Assembly: GCA_036268055.1 (NCBI GenBank) | Contig: DATAUW010000019.1 | Location: 1-64,000, forward strand | Length of the DNA: 64,000 bases | Source: Verrucomicrobiia bacterium | Lineage (GTDB): Bacteria; Verrucomicrobiota; Verrucomicrobiia; Limisphaerales; Pedosphaeraceae | Reading direction: 5' to 3' | Shown: piece after piece, positions 1,086-55,765 of the stretch | How the letters are laid out: each line of letters opens with the position of its first letter | Position numbering within the stretch: the first letter of the stretch is position 1 | Notes under the pieces: model-generated | The model's input: the letters and a program-made list of their open reading frames with translations, nothing else | What the model was told of the DNA's origin: nothing | Databases searched by the model: none | Made by a program: the position numbers and the translations under genes

Positions 1086-2270
1086 ATGAGCAAAAACTTC
1101 ATCTTCTCTTCCGAGTCCGTCGGCGAAGGCCATCCGGACAAAGTCTGCGATACTATTTCTGATGCCGTTCTCGACGCCTGCCTCGCGCAGGACCCGCGCA
1201 GCCGCGTCGCCTGCGAGACCTACGCCAAGAGCAACCTCGTGGTCGTCGGCGGTGAGATCACCACCAAGGCCAAGCTTGACTTCAACGACATCGCCCGCGC
1301 CGCCATTCGCGAAATCGGTTACACGCACGACGACGACGTTTTCCATGCCGACAAAGTGCTCATCATGAACGCCATCACCTCGCAAAGCCCCGATATTTCC
1401 CAGGGCGTTGATGCGAAGGCTGCCGACGGCAAGGACACCGCCGAACAAGGTGCCGGCGATCAGGGCCTCATGTTCGGTTACGCCTGCACCGAGACTCCCG
1501 AACTGATGCCCGCGCCCGTCATGTATGCGCATCAACTCGGCCGCGAACTCACTCGCATCCGCAAGGCCGGCAAGGTGGATTGGCTTCGCCCCGATGCCAA
1601 GAGCCAGGTCTCCGTTCAATACGAGAACGACCAACCCGTGCGCATCACCAACGTCGTTATCTCCACCCAACACGCCGAAGACGTGAAGCACAAGGAGATC
1701 AAGGATTTCATTACCAAGGAAATCATCAAAAAAGTTTTGCCCGCGCACCTGCTCGACAAAAAGACCCAGTTCCTCATCAATCCCACGGGTCGTTTCGTCG
1801 TCGGTGGACCGCAGGGCGATACCGGTCTGACCGGCCGCAAGATCATCGTGGACAGCTACGGCGGCATGGGTCGTCACGGTGGCGGCGCGTTCAGCGGCAA
1901 AGATCCGTCAAAGGTGGACCGCAGCGCTGCCTACATGGGCCGTTACGTTGCGAAAAATATTGTCGCCGCCGGCCTCGCCACCAGCGCGGAAATCCAGTTC
2001 GCCTACGCCATCGGTTATCCTGATCCCGTGTCCGTTTGCGTGAACACCTTCGGCACCGGCGTCGTCAGCGACGAAGCCATCGAAAAAGCCGTGCAGGAAG
2101 TTTTCAGCTTCAAGCCCGCCGCGATCATCAAGCAACTCAACCTCCTCCGACCCATCTACTCGAAGACCACCAACTACGGTCACTTCGGCAAGGTGGACGA
2201 CTTGAATAGCATCACTTGGGAAAAAACCGACAAAGCCGCAGCTCTGAAAAAGGCAGCGAAGAATTTGTAA
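1086..2270 (+). CDS. metK: S-adenosylmethionine synthetase
   Basis: This 394-residue enzyme makes S-adenosylmethionine from methionine and ATP in the cytoplasm. The N-terminus has the ATP/Mg signature GEGHPDK (residues 13-19), and the middle carries [17 protein letters not shown] followed by the glycine-rich loop [16 protein letters not shown]. These are the standard MetK landmarks, and the length is usual. The ATG at 1086 follows directly after the folded leader, and no longer in-frame start is needed. ahcY starts 36 bases downstream with no terminator between, so the two are very likely one transcript for the SAM/SAH methyl cycle. Confidence 0.97.
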
Positions 2271-2306: not shown

Positions 2307-3773
2307 ATGGCTGCTATTAAATTGCCCAAGTCGCCGAAAAACCGCCTGCCGAAAAACGGCAACGGTTCTAAACAAGACTATAAAGTTGCCGACATCGGTC
2401 TCGCCGATTCCGGCCGCAAAGAAATCACCATCGCCGAAGCTGAAATGCCCGGCCTCATGTCTATCCGCAAAAAATATGCGGTGGGCAAGCCGTTGAAAGG
2501 CGTGCGCATCACCGGTTCGTTGCACATGACTATTCAGACCGCCGTTCTCATCGAGACGCTCGTGGATCTCGGCGCGGACGTTCGCTGGGCTAGTTGCAAT
2601 ATCTTCTCCACGCAGGACAACGCTGCCGCGGCCATTGCCAAAGCCGGCGTTCCCGTCTTCGCCTGGAAAGGCGAATCGCTCGAAGAATATTGGGATTGCA
2701 CTCTCGACGCCGTCCGTCATCCGAATGGCAAAGGCCCCGAACTCGTCGTTGACGACGGCGGCGACGTGACGCTGCTCATCCACAAAGGTTATCAGCTTGA
2801 AGATGGCGACAAGTGGGTAACGTCACCTTCCGGCAGCCACGAAGAACAAGTCATCAAAAACTTGCTTAAGAAAGTTTATAAAGAGAATCCTACCTTCTGG
2901 CACAACATCGTGAAGGATTGGAAAGGTGTTTCAGAAGAAACCACCACCGGCGTCCATCGTCTCTATCAGATGAAGGAAGCGGGCAAGCTGCTCGTCCCCG
3001 CCATCAACGTAAACGACTCGGTCACCAAGAGCAAATTCGACAATCTCTACGGTTGCCGCGAATCCCTCGCCGACGGCATCAAGCGCGCCACCGACGTCAT
3101 GGTCGCGGGCAAAGTTGCGGTCGTTGCCGGTTACGGCGATGTCGGCAAAGGTTCGGCGCATTCACTTCGCGGTTTCGGCGCGCGCGTCATCGTCACCGAG
3201 ATTGACCCCATCAATGCGCTTCAAGCCGCGATGGAAGGTTTCGAAGTCACCACGCTCGAAGACACCCTCGGCACGGGCGACATCTACGTGACCACGACCG
3301 GTAATTGCGACATCATCACGCTCGAACACATGGCCAAGATGAAAGACCAGGCCATCGTCTGCAACATCGGCCACTTCGACAATGAGATCCAGATTGACCG
3401 CTTGAACAACGCCAAAGGCGTCACTCGGCTCAACATCAAACCGCAAGTGGATCGCTACACCTTCGCCGATGGCCATTGCATCTACATGCTCGCCGAAGGC
3501 CGCCTCGTGAACCTTGGTTGCGCCCATGGCCATCCGAGCTTCGTGATGTCCAATTCGTTCTCGAACCAAACCCTCGCGCAACTCGACCTCTGGGCGAACC
3601 GCGAATCCTATGAACCCACCGTCTATCGTCTCTCCAAGAAACTCGACGAAGAAGTGGCCCGCCTGCACCTCGAAAAAATCGGCGTGAAGCTCACCAAGCT
3701 CAGTAAAAAACAAGCCGACTACCTCGGCGTCCACGTCGAAGGCCCCTACAAACCCGACCACTACCGCTACTAA
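2307..3773 (+). CDS. ahcY: Adenosylhomocysteinase
   Basis: A 488-residue S-adenosylhomocysteine hydrolase that splits SAH into homocysteine and adenosine, relieving product inhibition of methyltransferases. The NAD-binding Rossmann loop reads [13 protein letters not shown] (about residue 272), with the catalytic-core stretch [13 protein letters not shown] before it. The C-terminus ends KPDHYRY, the conserved tail of the family. It is the second gene of the metK operon and is followed by a strong terminator at 3816-3848. The N-terminal 30 residues (lysine-rich, [15 protein letters not shown]) extend beyond many homologues and may be disordered. Confidence 0.97.
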
Positions 3774-29803: not shown

Positions 29804-29825
29804 CCGGCAGATTTCCTGCCTTTGT

Positions 29826-29880
29826 AGCGGCGGTCTATGGCCGTTGAATCCTCTGATAAAGAGCGACCATAGATTCCGCT
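29826..29880. repeat. Short inverted repeat, copy of a dispersed element
   Basis: AGCGGCGGTCTATGG (29826-29840) is mirrored by CCATAGATTCCGCT (29867-29880) with a one-base length difference. The left arm matches 46191-46212 (TAGCGGCGGTCTATGACC). It lies after the pit stop and may also stop transcription. The rest of the gap to 30071 shows nothing else convincing. Confidence 0.5.
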
Positions 29881-32883: not shown

Positions 32884-32982
32884 ATCGGGCACTTTTTGAC
32901 ACTAGCGCGGGTGATAAGAGGATGCTCGCCTGGGCTCGCCTCGCTTCGCTCGATATAGAGGTGAGCGGTTTTGACGAGGGTT

Positions 32983-33013
32983 CCCCCAACTGAAGTTGGG
33001 GGTTAATGAGAAG
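32983..33013. repeat. Dispersed hairpin repeat (CCCCCAACTGAAGTTGGGGG), copy 1
   Basis: A 7-8 bp hairpin followed by TTAATGAGAAG. An almost identical 32-base copy is at 38885-38916. Nothing else was identified in 32885-33154. Confidence 0.7.
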
Positions 33014-38733: not shown

Positions 38734-38884
38734 GAGATGAGAGAAAATAGACAATAAAGCAGGCGTTTTGTCAATGCGAAAATGGTCGCCGATGCCGGAA
38801 AAGGGCGCATCGGCAAAACCAGGGTTGGTGATTTGTAATTAGGGAAACGGTTGAAAACCGTTTTTTGCGTATGCACCGGTTTTT

Positions 38885-38916
38885 CCCCCAACTGAAGTTT
38901 GGGGGTTAATGAGAAG
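38885..38916. repeat. Dispersed hairpin repeat (CCCCCAACTGAAG...), copy 2
   Basis: It matches 32983-33013 with one extra T in the right arm and includes the same TTAATGAGAAG flank. The near identity over more than 30 bases shows a mobile or recombining origin. Confidence 0.7.
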
Positions 38917-38959: not shown

Positions 38960-39042
38960 TCGTCCCTCGCGGGACTTGGATTGAAGGGCGATTTAACCCA
39001 GCAATAAATTGCTGGGCTAAGGTCTGCCGTCCCTGCGGGACT
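38960..39042. repeat. Dispersed repeat with CCCAGC...GCTGGGCTAAG core (copy B)
   Basis: Same layout as copy A at 31461. The central hairpin here is CCCAGCAATAAATTGCTGGG, identical in copy C. Confidence 0.8.
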
Positions 39043-40714: not shown

Positions 40715-40792
40715 ACGCGGGACTTGGTTTGAGGGGTGTTTCAACCCAGCAATAAATTGCTGGGCTAAGGTCGGTCGTCCCTGGCGGGACTT
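40715..40792. repeat. Dispersed repeat with CCCAGC...GCTGGGCTAAG core (copy C)
   Basis: Same layout as copies A and B. It is followed by a GCGCGGCAGCGCAG-type GC-rich stretch and then the GGCTCGCGGGTACGCTCG repeat at 40911-40947; no gene lies in 40793-40947. Confidence 0.8.
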
Positions 40793-41001: not shown

Positions 41002-42378
41002 TTAGGAGGTGCGGCGGCGGCGGATGAGGCTCAAGGCTCCGGCGAGCGCGGCGCCGAGCAGACCGACGGAGGCAGCGGAGGGTTCCGGGGTGAAGACGAT
41101 GTCACCGGCGCTGTTGATTGTGGCCGCTCCGAGCCCGGTTCCGTTTACTTCAATCTCAGCCAGTTGAGCGGAGGTGAGACCGGTGGTGTCCACGCCGAAT
41201 TGCAGGGTGTCCACAGCCGAATTATAGTTAATCAGATCGAGTGTGCCGGTCCAGGTCAGGGAGGAACTATTGGCAAAGGAGGTGGTGGTTGCGCCCGCGC
41301 CGAAATCAATGATGCCGCCACTGGAAAGAGTGAGGGTGGTAGCTCCCATCGAATGGCTGAAACCACCCAAATTCAAGGTTGCGGTCGGGCCGGTCAAAAC
41401 GATGCCGGAACTGCTGGCGATGGTATTGGCCGCGCCCAGCACGAGGGTGATGGCCGTTGCGCTGGCCGATCCGATGGTGGTTACTCCCGAATAGGTATTG
41501 GCTCCACTTAATTTGATCTTGTCACCGTTGGCGCCGCTCAGCGTGAGGTTGGCGCTGCCGCTGATGGAGCCCGAAAGAGTCAACTGGGCCGTGCCGGGGC
41601 CGTTGTTTCTAAGGTTCAAATTGTTTGCGCCCAGGCTCCAGGTGCCGGTACTGATGACGGGGGTATTGGCAGCGCTGGCAAAATTAACGCCACCGCCGGA
41701 GGCCAAATTCACAAAGTTGTTGCCGAGGGTGATGGCAGCGCCGCCGGAGGAAAGGAGCGGCGCAAAACTGCCGGAGGTGAGTTGGATCCCGATGGCGCCG
41801 GTGCTGAAGGAATTGTTATTGTTGAAGCCGACCAGCGTGCTGCTGGAAGCCAACAACGTCCCGCCGGTATAGGTATTGTTACCCAAAAGATTAATGCTGC
41901 CGCCATTTTCAGGTTCGACGCCGCCGCTGCCACTGATCGGCGCGTTGATATTTACAGTGGAACTGCTGTGGCCAAGAAATCCTTGAACCGTGCCGACCCC
42001 GGCCACTACGGTGGTTGAGGTGGGGAGATCAAGGGTGCCAGAGCCGGTGGCATTCAGATTCAAGGTTTCACCGCTGACGGTGGCGAAAAACCCGGCTACG
42101 GATTCATCGGCGCTGAGCGTGACGGTATAGGGAAGCGCGGTGGTGAACTCGGCGAAACTTCCGGGCGTCCAGGCGCCCGTCGCCGTCGTGCCGCCGGAGG
42201 CCGTGGCCCAATTAGGGTCTTCCCAGGAGTAACTCGCGCCGCTGGTGACGCCGGTGCCGGCAGTGGTGCCGTTGACATCAAAAAAATCGTTACCCGCCTG
42301 GGCATTGTTCGCCTGAAGGCCGAACAGAACGCAAACACCGGCGGAGGCATATAGGAGGGTGGAGGAGAAGTTTTTCAT
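41002..42378 (-). CDS. PEP-CTERM protein with autotransporter-associated beta-strand repeats
   Basis: 458 residues. A signal peptide (LLYASAGVCVLFGLQANNAQA) is followed by a Gly/Ser/Thr/Asn-rich beta-helix region. It contains repeats of the NNTYTGGTLLA and ANTYSGVTTIG kind, typical of autotransporter-associated beta strands. The C-terminus is a PEP-CTERM signal: PEPSAASVGLLGAALAGAL, then LIRRRR. Exosortase would cleave it during export to a surface or matrix. No exosortase gene is in the window. GTTAC direct repeats lie 33-74 bases upstream of its start. Confidence 0.9.
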   Translation of the reverse strand: MKNFSSTLLYASAGVCVLFGLQANNAQAGNDFFDVNGTTAGTGVTSGASYSWEDPNWATASGGTTATGAWTPGSFAEFTTALPYTVTLSADESVAGFFATVSGETLNLNATGSGTLDLPTSTTVVAGVGTVQGFLGHSSSTVNINAPISGSGGVEPENGGSINLLGNNTYTGGTLLASSSTLVGFNNNNSFSTGAIGIQLTSGSFAPLLSSGGAAITLGNNFVNLASGGGVNFASAANTPVISTGTWSLGANNLNLRNNGPGTAQLTLSGSISGSANLTLSGANGDKIKLSGANTYSGVTTIGSASATAITLVLGAANTIASSSGIVLTGPTATLNLGGFSHSMGATTLTLSSGGIIDFGAGATTTSFANSSSLTWTGTLDLINYNSAVDTLQFGVDTTGLTSAQLAEIEVNGTGLGAATINSAGDIVFTPEPSAASVGLLGAALAGALSLIRRRRTS

Positions 42379-42564: not shown

Positions 42565-42612
42565 GTGTTCGGCGGGCCGCCGAACACGGCACGCGGGACG
42601 CGTGCGCTCCCC
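42565..42612 (-). repeat. Solo REP doublet of the alaS-transposon family
   Basis: Read on the minus strand: GGGGAGC, hairpin GCACGCG-TCC-CGCGTGC, then hairpin GTGTTCGGCG-GCC-CGCCGAACAC. This is the same order, and partly the same sequence, as each end of the RAYT element in alaS (53313-53962), but with no transposase between. GGAG at the hairpin base is the tetranucleotide typical of REP sequences recognised by RAYTs. Confidence 0.8.
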
Positions 42613-46171: not shown

Positions 46172-46190
46172 GCTCTCCTTTTTCCTCCTG

Positions 46191-46212
46191 TAGCGGCGGT
46201 CTATGACCGCCG
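46191..46212. repeat. Dispersed hairpin repeat, possible terminator
   Basis: CGGCGGTC-TAT-GACCGCCG, a perfect 8-bp stem 20 bases after the lipoprotein stop. The sequence TAGCGGCGGTCTATG is shared with 29825-29839. Confidence 0.6.
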
Positions 46213-46246
46213 AATGTCGATGCTCCTCTTCCTTCCTGATCCGCGA

Positions 46247-50952: not shown

Positions 50953-51393
50953 CCCAAAAATAAAAAAACCCCACCGTAATGCCGTGTATAACAGCTCCTA
51001 TGAACGCCTTAGGAATAGGTGGAACCCGATCGATTTCTTTCGACTTCCAGTGAAGGCCTGTCGGCCACAACCGAAATAGAGGCTCCGTTTTTTATTAACT
51101 ACGGTTCAAGGACTTTGTTAGGCTCACGAACATGGCAGGGTAAATTGTCTGCTCGATCTTTCCAAAGAGCGGGGCGCTCCGGGCTGCGCCGACTGTCAAT
51201 CAACTGGTTTTATCATCGGCGGATTTTGCAAAAATCTCAAGCAAAAATTTCCGCGCACGGCTTTTATTTTTGAAAATTTTCGCGGACATTCCCCTTGACC
51301 TCACGGGAAACGCGGCCCAAGTTGACAATGGCCTTGAAATGAACGGCGCGTCATTTCCAACACTGCCGTCCGTAAACTCCTTTTTATATTGTT
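50953..51393. other. Non-coding block upstream of rarA; possible small RNA
   Basis: No convincing ORF in about 440 bases. The sequence can fold: GTG-AA-GGCC-TGTC-GGCC-CAC near 51051-51072, CCGT/ACGG, and AACCG with CGGTT. On the minus strand a run GGTGGGGTTTTTTT ends at about 50967. 6S RNA genes are known to neighbour ygfA in Proteobacteria and rarA in Firmicutes, so a 6S-type RNA would fit this spot. I could not confirm the 6S core structure by eye. Confidence 0.3.
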
Positions 51394-52426: not shown

Positions 52427-55400
52427 ATGACCAGCAGTGATATACGCCAGTCGTTTCTCGACTTCTTCAAATCGAAGCAACACACCATCGTGCCCTCGTC
52501 CAGCCTCATGCCGGACTCGCCCAACCTGCTATTCACGAACGCCGGGATGAACCAGTTTGTGCCGATTTTCCTCGGGCAAATCCAATGCCCCTATAACCCG
52601 CCCCGCGCCGCTGACACCCAAAAATGCATCCGCGCCGGCGGCAAACATAACGACCTCGACGACGTCGGCCTCGACACCTATCACCACACCTTTTTCGAGA
52701 TGCTCGGCAACTGGAGCTTCGGAAATTATTTTAAGCAGGAAGCGATTGATTGGGCGTGGGAACTCATCACCGAGGTCTGGAAGTTCCCCAAGAACCGCCT
52801 CTACGCCACGGTTTATTCGCCGGATAAAACCAAGGGCGACCCCAGCGATTTCGACCAGGAAGCCTACGATTTTTGGGCCGCGAAATTCACCACCGCCGGA
52901 CTCGATCCGAAAGTCCACATCGTCTATGGCAACAAGAAAGATAATTTCTGGATGATGGGCGAAACCGGCCCGTGCGGCCCGTGCTCGGAATTGCACGTGG
53001 ACCTCACGCCGGACGGCTCGACCAAAGGCTCGCTCGTCAATAAAGGCAGCGCCCAGTGCATCGAAATTTGGAACCTCGTCTTCATCCAGTTCAACGCGAA
53101 CCCCGACGGCACCTTCTCTCCCCTGCCCGCGCGCCACGTGGACACCGGCATGGGCTTCGAGCGCGTCACGAGCATCATCCAATGCACGAAAAATTTCACC
53201 AACTTCAGCGGCATCATTTCCAATTACGAAACCGACATCTTCCGCCCCATTTTCGACGTCCTGGAAAAGATGAGCGGCAAACGGTACACATCCACATTGC
53301 CGGGACAAAATATTCCCGGGGAGCACACGCGCCCTCGCGTGTCGCCGACCGCGCCCTCGCGGTCGGCATCCGAGTCCGGCCATCAACCGGGGACAAAATA
53401 TTCACGTCGCAACCTGCCGCATTTTGAGCGTCCGTGGGCAAAATACATGGTGACTTTTTCAACCCATGATCACCGCAAATTAACGGCCGCCGAACGCGAT
53501 TTGACGCTCCGCAGCATTCTCTACGCTCATGAACATCGGCAATATCAACTCTATGCCGCATGCGTGATGCCTGACCATGTCCATCTTCTATTTGAACCAC
53601 AGATAAAAGAAAAAAATGAGGCTGGCGAAACTGTTTTCTGGTCTTTGCGCGAAATCTTGCAAGGTATCAAATCTGCAAGCGCCCACCAAATAAATGAGTC
53701 ATCCGCCACCAAAGGTCATGTTTGGGAACAAGAATACATGGATCGAATGATTCGCGGAGATTCTGATTTTGAAGAGAAATTTCATTATATATGCAGGAAT
53801 CCTTGGGATTCGGGCGACGCATCGGCTACGGAAAATTATCCTTGGTTATGGACTCCGGGTGTTTCCGCAGAACAAGTCAACACAGCGGAAAATGTTAACG
53901 CTGTAGTGCCGACTGCGGGGGCGCAGTCGGCTGCACGCGAGGGCGCGTGCGCTCCCCGGGAACAGGAACAGCTGGACATCGCCTTCCGCGTCATCGCCGA
54001 CCACATCCGTACGTTGAGTTTCTCGATTGCCGACGGAATTCAACCGGGCAACACCGACCGCAACTACGTCCTGCGCCGCATCCTCCGCCGCGCGGTGCGC
54101 TATGGCCGCACGCTCGGCTTTCATCAGCCGTTTTTCTACAAACTCGTGGACGTCCTCGCCGACACGATGGGCGGCGTGTTTCCCGAAATTCGCGCGCGCC
54201 AGCAAATCGTAAAGGACGTGCTCAAGACTGAGGAAGAAGCTTTCAACAAGACACTCGATCGAGGCATCGAACTCTTTGAAAAAGCGAGTTCGAGCAATTC
54301 AGCTTCGCAATCGGAATTGCCAGCCAACTTCGCTTTTACGCTCTATGATACGTATGGCTTTCCCTATGACCTCACCGAATTAATGGCGCGCGAACGCGGC
54401 CTTACGGTGGATAAAGCGGGCTTCGACAAACTGATGGAGGAGCAGAAGGCTCGCGCTCGCGCCGCCCAGAAAAAAGAAGTCATTTCCCTTTCGCAAATCG
54501 AAACCACCGCTCCCACAAAATTCGTCGGGTTCGAGCAACTGCAAACTCCAGCGAAAGTTTTGGAAGTTGTTTCGGTCAAAGACAAGACCGGCGTGATTCT
54601 CGACGTTTCTTCGGCCTATGCCGAGATGGGCGGGCAGGTCGGCGACACCGGTGAAATGTCCGGCGCGGGCCAGCTTTGGCGCGTCGCGAACACGCAAAAA
54701 ACCGGCAACACCTTTCTGCACTTCCTCGCGGACAAGGACGCACCCGCTATCGGCACGACCGTCGAACTTTCCGTGGATGCCCCCCGCCGCGGCGCCATCC
54801 AGCGGCATCACACCGTCACGCATTTGCTTCATTGGGCCTTGCACGAAGTCGTCAACCAGGAAGCGACGCAGAAAGGCTCGTTCGTCGGGCCGGACAAATT
54901 GACGTTCGATTTTAATTCCGCCGCGCTCACGCCCGCGCAAGTGCGCGACATCGAGAAACTGGTCAACGAACGCATCGTTGAAAATGCGGGCGTCTCCTGG
55001 ACGGAAGTCCCGCACGACGACGTCAAGCAGCGCAAGGACGTGATGCAATTTTTCGGCGAGAAATACGGCGACGTCGTCCGCGTCGTGCAAATCGGCGGGC
55101 AAGCGGGCGCATTGAACGGTTATTCGATGGAACTTTGCGGCGGCACGCACACGCGCGCGACTGGCGAGATCGGTTTGTTCCGCATCGTCAGCGAGGCCGC
55201 GGTCGCGGCGGGCGTGCGGCGCATCGAAGCGGTCGCAGGACTCGCCGCGTATCAGGCGGCGCATCAGGAAGCGGAATTGCTCCGCTCGGTTGCCGGCCGC
55301 GTGAGCGCGCCCATCGCCGAACTTGAAAAGAAAATTGATTCGCTGCTTACCCATCAGCGCGAAATCGAGAAACAACTGAAATCATTCCAGCAAAAAGAAG

Positions 55401-55765
55401 CCGCCCAGGCCGCTCGCGGATTGGTTGCTCGTGCGCAAAACATCGGCGCGGACAATTTGCGCGCCATCATCGAAAATCTTGGCAATGTGGACGGCGATTA
55501 TCTGCAAGCCGTCGCTGACGCACTGAAGGGTGAGTTTAAAGGCGTCGTCGTGCTGGGTGGAACTTCAAATGGCGCAGTCTCGCTCATCGCCACCGTTTCG
55601 CCGGAGTTCACCGCAAAAGTGCAGGCGGGAAAAATCATCCAGACGATTGCACCCATCGTCGGCGGCAAAGGCGGTGGAAAACCCGACAACGCTCGTGGTG
55701 GTGGCAAAGACATTGCGAAATTGGACGAAGCGCTCGCTAAAGCAAAAGCATTGCTCAGCGTGTAA
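52427..55765 (+). CDS. alaS: Alanyl-tRNA synthetase interrupted in frame by a RAYT transposase
   Basis: One unbroken ORF of 1112 residues; normal AlaRS is about 870-900. Residues 1-292 are the class II catalytic core ([20 protein letters not shown]; motif 3 in [14 protein letters not shown]). At residue ~293, after [10 protein letters not shown], AlaRS stops and about 218 foreign residues follow. AlaRS resumes at [26 protein letters not shown] (~512) through the tRNA-recognition helices ([14 protein letters not shown]), the editing domain ([23 protein letters not shown]) and the C-Ala domain ([16 protein letters not shown]). The join lies between catalytic and tRNA-recognition domains. No stop or frame change occurs, and every AlaRS motif I checked is intact, so the enzyme presumably works with the insert or after its removal. 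It is the only alaS in view; a second genomic copy cannot be excluded. Confidence 0.95.
   Translation: [1112 protein letters not shown]
53325..53367 (+). repeat. Left REP doublet of the RAYT element
   Basis: Hairpin 1: ACACGCG-CCCT-CGCGTGT (53325-53342). Hairpin 2: GCCGACCGCG-CCCT-CGCGGTCGGC (53344-53367), a perfect 10-bp stem. GGGGAG precedes hairpin 1. The block is bracketed by two direct copies of GGGACAAAATATTC (53302-53315 and 53390-53403). The whole doublet is translated within the alaS frame. Confidence 0.88.
53908..53950 (-). repeat. Right REP doublet of the RAYT element
   Basis: The mirror of the left end: GCCGACTGCG-GGGG-CGCAGTCGGC (53908-53931), then GCACGCG-AGGG-CGCGTGC (53933-53950) and CTCCCC. 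Small differences from the left end are mostly compensated across the stems (GACC/GGTC against GACT/AGTC), suggesting selection for structure. Confidence 0.88.

Follow-up and report, generated by a model that had tools for sequence, protein, structure and literature searches.

Is the double hairpin at positions 42565–42612 of this 64,000-nucleotide stretch of Verrucomicrobiia DNA (the window) a copy of the ends of the transposase element that lies in alaS? The initial annotation proposed that it reproduces the end of this element, which encodes a RAYT and lies 10.7 kb away. The doublet itself was confirmed by sequence and fold. Read from 42612 to 42565, the minus strand is GGGGAGC / GCACGCG-TCC-CGCGTGC / C / GTGTTCGGCG-GCC-CGCCGAACAC: a head (GGGGAGC, 42606–42612), a first hairpin with a 7-bp stem and the loop TCC (42589–42605), a spacer C (42588), and a second hairpin with a 10-bp stem (42565–42587) whose loop is GCC, where most of its siblings have TCC. 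When folded as single-stranded DNA, the doublet forms exactly these two hairpins, both of them perfect (-20.9 kcal/mol, z -3.8). It lies in the gap between two divergent ORFs: a 458-aa ORF on the minus strand without a Pfam match (41002–42378), and, 99 bp away (the annotation had said about 100 bp), a plus-strand gene of the beta-lactamase/serine hydrolase family (PF00144; 42712–43872), which was identified with Pfam.

The 7-nt head by itself is uninformative, as it occurs 3 times in the window versus ~8 times expected. With the 24-nt head and first hairpin as the pattern, we found 19 matches with at most 3 mismatches in the 5.1-Mb assembly and none for the reversed control, so the further genomic copies that the annotation had expected do exist. 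(Genomic copy numbers for both REP families discussed below are from pattern searches.) The reversed control and the z-score of the fold rule out a chance match. The doublet has what is expected of a REP, namely a G[T/G]AG-type head, a short palindrome, and many scattered copies, and these copies are intergenic or close to the start of a gene. It is a single REP and not an inverted pair (REPIN). We also checked copies for solo REPs that are in frame inside conserved genes, as the annotation had recommended, and found none in the source genome among the copies checked: where ORFs span solo copies, either the frames are not conserved or the copies are near gene starts. The in-frame copies are instead complete RAYT elements or what deletions have left of them. 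On the basis of its sequence, its fold, the 19 genomic copies, and their alignment, we assigned the doublet to what we call the T-loop family. We conclude that it is a commonplace REP between genes that shows its age, and that its family is a sister to that of the alaS RAYT's own repeats.

The element in alaS is more unusual. The 1112-aa open frame of alaS (52427–55765, plus strand; ORF and Pfam evidence), which is the only alaS found in the assembly, runs straight through it. Alignment to 18 uninterrupted relatives shows an in-frame insert of 211 aa (53303–53935, plus strand; residues 293–503 of AlaRS) at a position that we call site A, in a linker of variable length before the AFRVIADHIR motif. 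Within the insert is a RAYT or Y1 HUH domain (53396–53854, plus strand; residues 324–476), which is supported by Pfam (Y1_Tnp), NCBIfam, alignment, and AF2/Foldseek. Its H384, H386, and Y454 are intact, and no start codon of its own is evident. The domain is flanked by two REP doublets of a second type, the C-loop family, both of which are also coding: a 5' doublet with the loops CCCT/CCCT (53318–53367, plus strand) and a 3' doublet in the inverted orientation (53908–53957, minus strand). Two inverted flanking REPs, as expected for a RAYT, are also present at most of the 79 related loci that we describe below. The domain scores 84 bits against NCBIfam NF047646 (the cut-off is 80 bits, and some relatives are just under it). 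Its AF2 model has a pLDDT of 88.9, and the best Foldseek match is 4er8 (E 4.4e-7, TM 0.69), a structure of E. coli TnpA_REP in complex with a REP hairpin, which is also the sole sequence match in the PDB. The model of the whole AlaRS, from a shallow alignment, has a mean pLDDT of 71 and a pTM of 0.40; the RAYT core is modelled with confidence, and pLDDT is below 50 in the stretches encoded by the REPs (residues 292–334 and 479–510), which is consistent with predicted disorder, as in flexible tethers. We also noticed a 6S RNA (RF00013, 74 bits) at 50964–51144 on the minus strand, ~1.3 kb upstream of alaS.

How similar is the solo doublet to the ends of this element? The head and the stem of hairpin 1 are identical between the two families, and to that extent the doublet does reproduce the RAYT end. 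However, the match ends there: the second stem is different, as are both loops, in a way characteristic of each family. In T-loop copies, the loop of hairpin 1 is TCC and so, usually, is that of hairpin 2; these copies have a second stem of GTGTTCGGCG/CGCCGAACAC or variants of it, and GGGTTTT, TTTT, or something similar 5' of the head. The ends of the alaS element have the loop CCCT (CCCC once) and the second stem CCGAC[C/T]GCG, and nearly all C-loop copies have TCCC before the head. The solo doublet has the loop TCC in its first hairpin and no TCCC before the head, although its second loop (GCC) is atypical and counts against placing it in the T-loop family. Because the loop, the flank, and the second stem all differ, we ruled out that the doublet was copied directly from an end of the alaS element.

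The families also differ in their state of preservation. Of the 36 C-loop copies, which include both alaS ends, 27 are exact and 99.2% of the stem cells in their alignment are paired (the reversed control gave 0 matches); of the 19 T-loop copies, 5 are exact and 93.0% of stem cells are paired. By these sequence measures, the C-loop family is fresh and the T-loop family is older and decaying. Some C-loop copies form inverted pairs spanning 132–155 bp. Covariation in the REP stems exceeds that in shuffled and slid controls, which shows that the secondary structure has been kept. In the C-loop family, compensatory changes are mostly at the foot of hairpin 2, and the apex (GCG-loop-CGC) is invariant.

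Could the alaS RAYT have made the solo doublet anyway, by reading GGAG and the first hairpin, with the loop and the second stem being irrelevant? The annotation had suggested that these parts suffice. The assembly has five Y1_Tnp genes, and the one in alaS is the only RAYT with GGGGAGC doublets at its ends; we rejected the other four as sources of the doublet, as no such doublets are nearby. The shared head and hairpin-1 stem would be explained, and the foot of hairpin 2 is indeed free to covary. But hairpin 2 has a constant apex and loop, and this loop corresponds to the one in hairpin 1: across 100 doublets at RAYT ends, 98 have the same first loop base in both hairpins, versus a mean of 33 and a maximum of 49 after shuffling (the sequences are related, hence not independent). 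Because the two hairpins of a doublet share this base, it probably sets the specificity of the REP, as far as sequence comparison can tell. In Stenotrophomonas maltophilia, the loop and the GTAG head are recognition determinants of TnpA_REP, and the loop is critical (PMC8266576), which also argues against a RAYT that ignores the loop. One locus (L206, 2099–2149) mixes the types: it has the flank and second stem of the T-loop family, yet C-type loops in both hairpins. This pair of loops fits a joint switch, and it implies that loop types can interconvert or that one RAYT may accept both, which would favor the alaS RAYT as the source. On the other hand, the families are cleanly separated by the loop, by the hairpin-2 apex, and by the bases that precede the head, and the T-loop family is far more decayed. 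Overall, we consider it unlikely that the alaS RAYT made the doublet.

Instead, it is quite probable that the doublet is a REP from an orphaned and decaying T-loop family, and that the alaS RAYT, which belongs to a lineage that lodges in frame, serves the separate C-loop family. As to which RAYT moved which REP, we infer that the T-loop family is an orphan whose RAYT is gone or unassembled, which is the simplest reading. None of the five Y1_Tnp genes in the source assembly has TCC-type ends. Among relatives, RAYTs with T-loop GGGGAGC ends are found in thrS (L125 and L126) and in alaS (L136, L159, and L163). We considered whether the source genome might have such a RAYT in its thrS, but that frame is 655 aa, which is the size of uninterrupted relatives. 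The assembly, with its 41 contigs and a completeness of 96%, may simply have missed a T-loop RAYT. The cognate RAYT would have resembled the T-loop-ended ones of relatives, such as those in thrS, and would have been lost or never assembled. A HUH-Y1 transposase of the RAYT family would have spread the T-loop REP, with its G[G/T]AG head and its tandem hairpins with matched loops, as single-stranded DNA to extragenic sites.

The initial annotation had also read the doublet as the expected relation of a REP family to its RAYT, and as a sign that the RAYT is or was active. The general relation holds for the alaS RAYT and its own C-loop family, and this population (36 copies, 27 exact) suggests that the alaS RAYT was recently active; the solo doublet is just not a member of it.

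The distribution of REPs across relatives is less tidy. The annotation stated that equal abundance in relatives without the RAYT would count against the relation, and this is partly the case, as T-type REPs are plentiful in some genomes in which we found no close RAYT (53 copies in G025, 24 in G018, and 14 in G008). Across 39 relatives, at least 4 T-type copies were present in 5/7 of those with a close RAYT versus 7/32 of those without (Fisher p 0.02); with a threshold of at least 1 copy, p is 0.08, so the association is only modest overall. C-type copies are most numerous in G058 (198 copies), which carries a sister of the alaS RAYT, followed by G043 (41, without a close RAYT), G000 (36), G017 (17), and G001 (8); all other genomes have at most 4. 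The REP-rich genomes without a close RAYT (G043, G025, and G018) imply that REP populations can outlive their RAYT or lose sight of it. Similarly, given the C-loop REPs of G043 and the T-loop REPs of relatives without a close RAYT, the matching of REPs to RAYTs is not strict.

Another explanation is that the doublet is kept as a regulatory element in RNA or DNA (a terminator, an mRNA stabilizer, or a gyrase or IHF site) and that its mobility is irrelevant. Its hairpins are stable, it is intergenic, and REPs have known secondary roles in other bacteria (PMC2817692, PMC3733652). But it is in a divergent gap rather than at the 3' end of a gene, and the T-loop family is scattered and decaying, with no conserved neighbor seen among the copies. 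We think that a regulatory role is very unlikely to account for the doublet.

The window contains other dispersed repeats as well. Two copies of the "Acido-Lenti-1 RNA" (Rfam RF01687), at 38997–39042 and 40745–40791, coincide with a direct-repeat family (D1), and the source genome has at least 116 copies. At L024, inverted copies (1970–2015, minus strand, and 2650–2695, plus strand) flank a 147-aa transposase (2162–2605), and in G026 (L239), copies lie on both sides of a 61%-identical relative of this transposase. RF01687 resembles a REP-like end that belongs to a further Y1 transposase. Further short dispersed repeats are at 32981–33002 and 38883–38904 and at 29823–29849 and 46189–46215 (palindromic TTCCCCCAACTGAAGTTGGGGG; TGTAGCGGCGGTCTATGGCCGTTGAAT), and these are probably other REP-like families.

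To return to the RAYT in alaS, its close relatives (E < 1e-40, from 78 genomes) were all in long frames, inside alaS or thrS. A scan of named genomes, which are largely fragmented MAGs, gave 79 loci, mostly from Verrucomicrobiota MAGs (one record is titled Kiritimatiellaeota). Five RAYTs are stand-alone. The other 74 share a reading frame with a host gene on one or both sides: 67 are bordered by host sequence at both ends, 5 reach contig ends, and 2 have a stop on one side (L117 and L121). The hosts of the 74 copies are alaS (30, at two sites), recG (28), metH (9, at two sites), thrS (5), priA (1), and carB (1). Like site A, site B of alaS is in a linker whose length is naturally variable. As a control, we examined RAYTs from across the phylum that are above the NCBIfam cut-off, and only 8/110 of these are in frames of at least 500 aa, versus 73/79 in this lineage. 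In most copies, the frame continues without stops through the REPs and the RAYT, and even the stand-alone copies read through their 5' REP. An in-frame ATG is found near the start of the domain in 8/74 copies (only ATG was counted; GTG/TTG are commoner). The doublets are free of stops in all six frames more often than shuffled sequences (67% vs. 33%), which is partly expected from their coding position.

Some of these loci are more complex. Two alaS genes (L077 and L080, in G058 and G068) carry two RAYTs in a single frame, at sites A and B; the two RAYTs in G058 belong to different clades and have different types of REPs. At a third site in alaS, the linker of the editing domain, L077, L079/L117, and L080 have in-frame REP pairs without a RAYT, such as GEHTRPRVSQSAPPPIAS...AAREGACGPQ in L077. 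At site B of alaS in G061 (L237), a REP peptide is fused in frame to the C-terminus of a RAYT (DAWLWTPQTPRRDAKESTRDAHAPP). This relic is the scar of a deleted RAYT, left by an internal deletion that preserved the frame of the host. In L117 (G009), a stop between host and RAYT splits alaS into frames of 398 aa and 1040 aa, and in L121, metH is cut after the RAYT; these stops may reflect a split gene, decay, or assembly error. RAYTs from other lineages are also found in frames of 670–1100 aa (G115:C3, G142:C53, G145:C112, G116:C123, G157:C1/C18, and G195:C125), so RAYTs may have come to lodge in frame on more than one occasion. We did not find the alaS-type RAYT in any phage records, and PADLOC did not link the RAYT to a defense system.

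These RAYTs seem to be maintained. The HUH histidines and the catalytic tyrosine (H61, H63, and Y131) are invariant in 17 aligned sequences, and the lineage is under purifying selection (dN/dS of 0.03–0.15, where dS is not saturated). In the RAYT tree, which is from a short search, the host-site labels cluster but require 18 changes (the minimum possible is 8), and well-supported branches alone force at least 5 changes for alaS site B and at least 4 for site A. From the tree, the lineage appears to have switched hosts repeatedly.

We lean towards the view that this lineage of REP transposases is an in-frame guest of AlaRS, RecG, MetH, ThrRS, PriA, and CarB, that brings neither a start nor a stop, with REPs that double as linkers, and with specificity set by the loop base. 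The RAYT is predicted to act on DNA and would excise or copy the single-stranded DNA between REP ends. An insertion into a coding sequence would survive only if its total length is divisible by three and if it falls in a linker that tolerates it; the whole element, from REP to REP, would then stay open in the frame of an essential enzyme. The RAYT would be expressed together with the host, as an internal domain of a fusion protein that the host enzyme presumably tolerates, and the terminal REPs would be both the ends that are recognized in the DNA and the coding sequence for flexible linkers. Specificity would be read from the loop base that the two tandem hairpins have in common. Copies would move among the few sites that tolerate them, leaving scars that keep the frame. 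Decay that breaks the frame would be lethal, and RAYT copies may persist because selection on the host enzyme purges such decay.

It is also very unlikely that the insert is removed, as an intein, as an intron, or by translational bypass, and is harmless for that reason: inserts in single-copy essential genes do resemble inteins, and each is flanked by inverted hairpins, but Pfam finds only AlaRS domains and Y1_Tnp, the absence of a Hint domain (Pfam) and of an intron (Rfam) argues against an intein or an intron, the frame is continuous and stop-free through the REPs and RAYT in most copies, the sites are linkers that naturally vary in length, and the internally deleted copy in L237 persists as an in-frame scar.

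The in-frame guest that we favor shares features with several known systems. As in REP/RAYT (TnpA_REP) systems, REPINs, and BIMEs, there is a HUH-Y1 transposase with inverted REPs that have a G[G/T]AG head and a hairpin (Nunvar 2010, PMC2817692; Bertels and Rainey 2011, PMC3116915; PMC8266576), and there are many short non-autonomous copies, some of them in inverted pairs 132–155 bp apart. Unlike in those systems, every REP consists of two tandem hairpins whose loops match, and most members of the lineage lie in frame in essential genes and show no evident start or stop in the element itself. The domain belongs to the same superfamily as the TnpA_Y1 subclasses of Quentin et al. 2018 (PMC6006769), which list HUH motifs of the DH[V/L/F]H type and tyrosine motifs of the YI..NP type. 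Palindromic repeats in frame within coding genes, including tRNA synthetases, are known from the verrucomicrobium Opitutus terrae and other bacteria, Rickettsia among them (Di Nocera 2013, PMC3733652), but those are short repeats of ~20–80 aa without a RAYT, whereas here the in-frame insert is a whole transposase. Our solo doublet, which is intergenic, also differs from the intragenic REPs of Opitutus terrae. Like inteins, the RAYTs are mobile, code for protein, and are inserted in frame in conserved genes that are present in a single copy; unlike inteins, they have no splicing domain, they lie in variable linkers instead of active-site motifs, and they are apparently retained in the protein. 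Among open-licence papers, we found none that describes housekeeping genes with a whole RAYT in frame, and we found no discussion of Verrucomicrobia or of intragenic RAYTs in PMC6006769; absence from these papers is not proof. The solo doublet is a REP of a known type, while whole in-frame RAYTs are apparently undescribed.

On its own, then, the solo REP is ordinary, and the RAYT lineage is the larger result. The TnpA_Y1 survey left out proteins that were longer than expected, treating them as fusions or annotation errors (PMC6006769); surveys that drop "over-long" transposases, or that annotate these genes as plain alaS or recG, miss the whole lineage. With a shared loop base, and with both families present in the same genome, the coding of REP specificity becomes testable. 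Finally, residence in indispensable enzymes would explain the long persistence of single-copy RAYTs without any benefit to the host.
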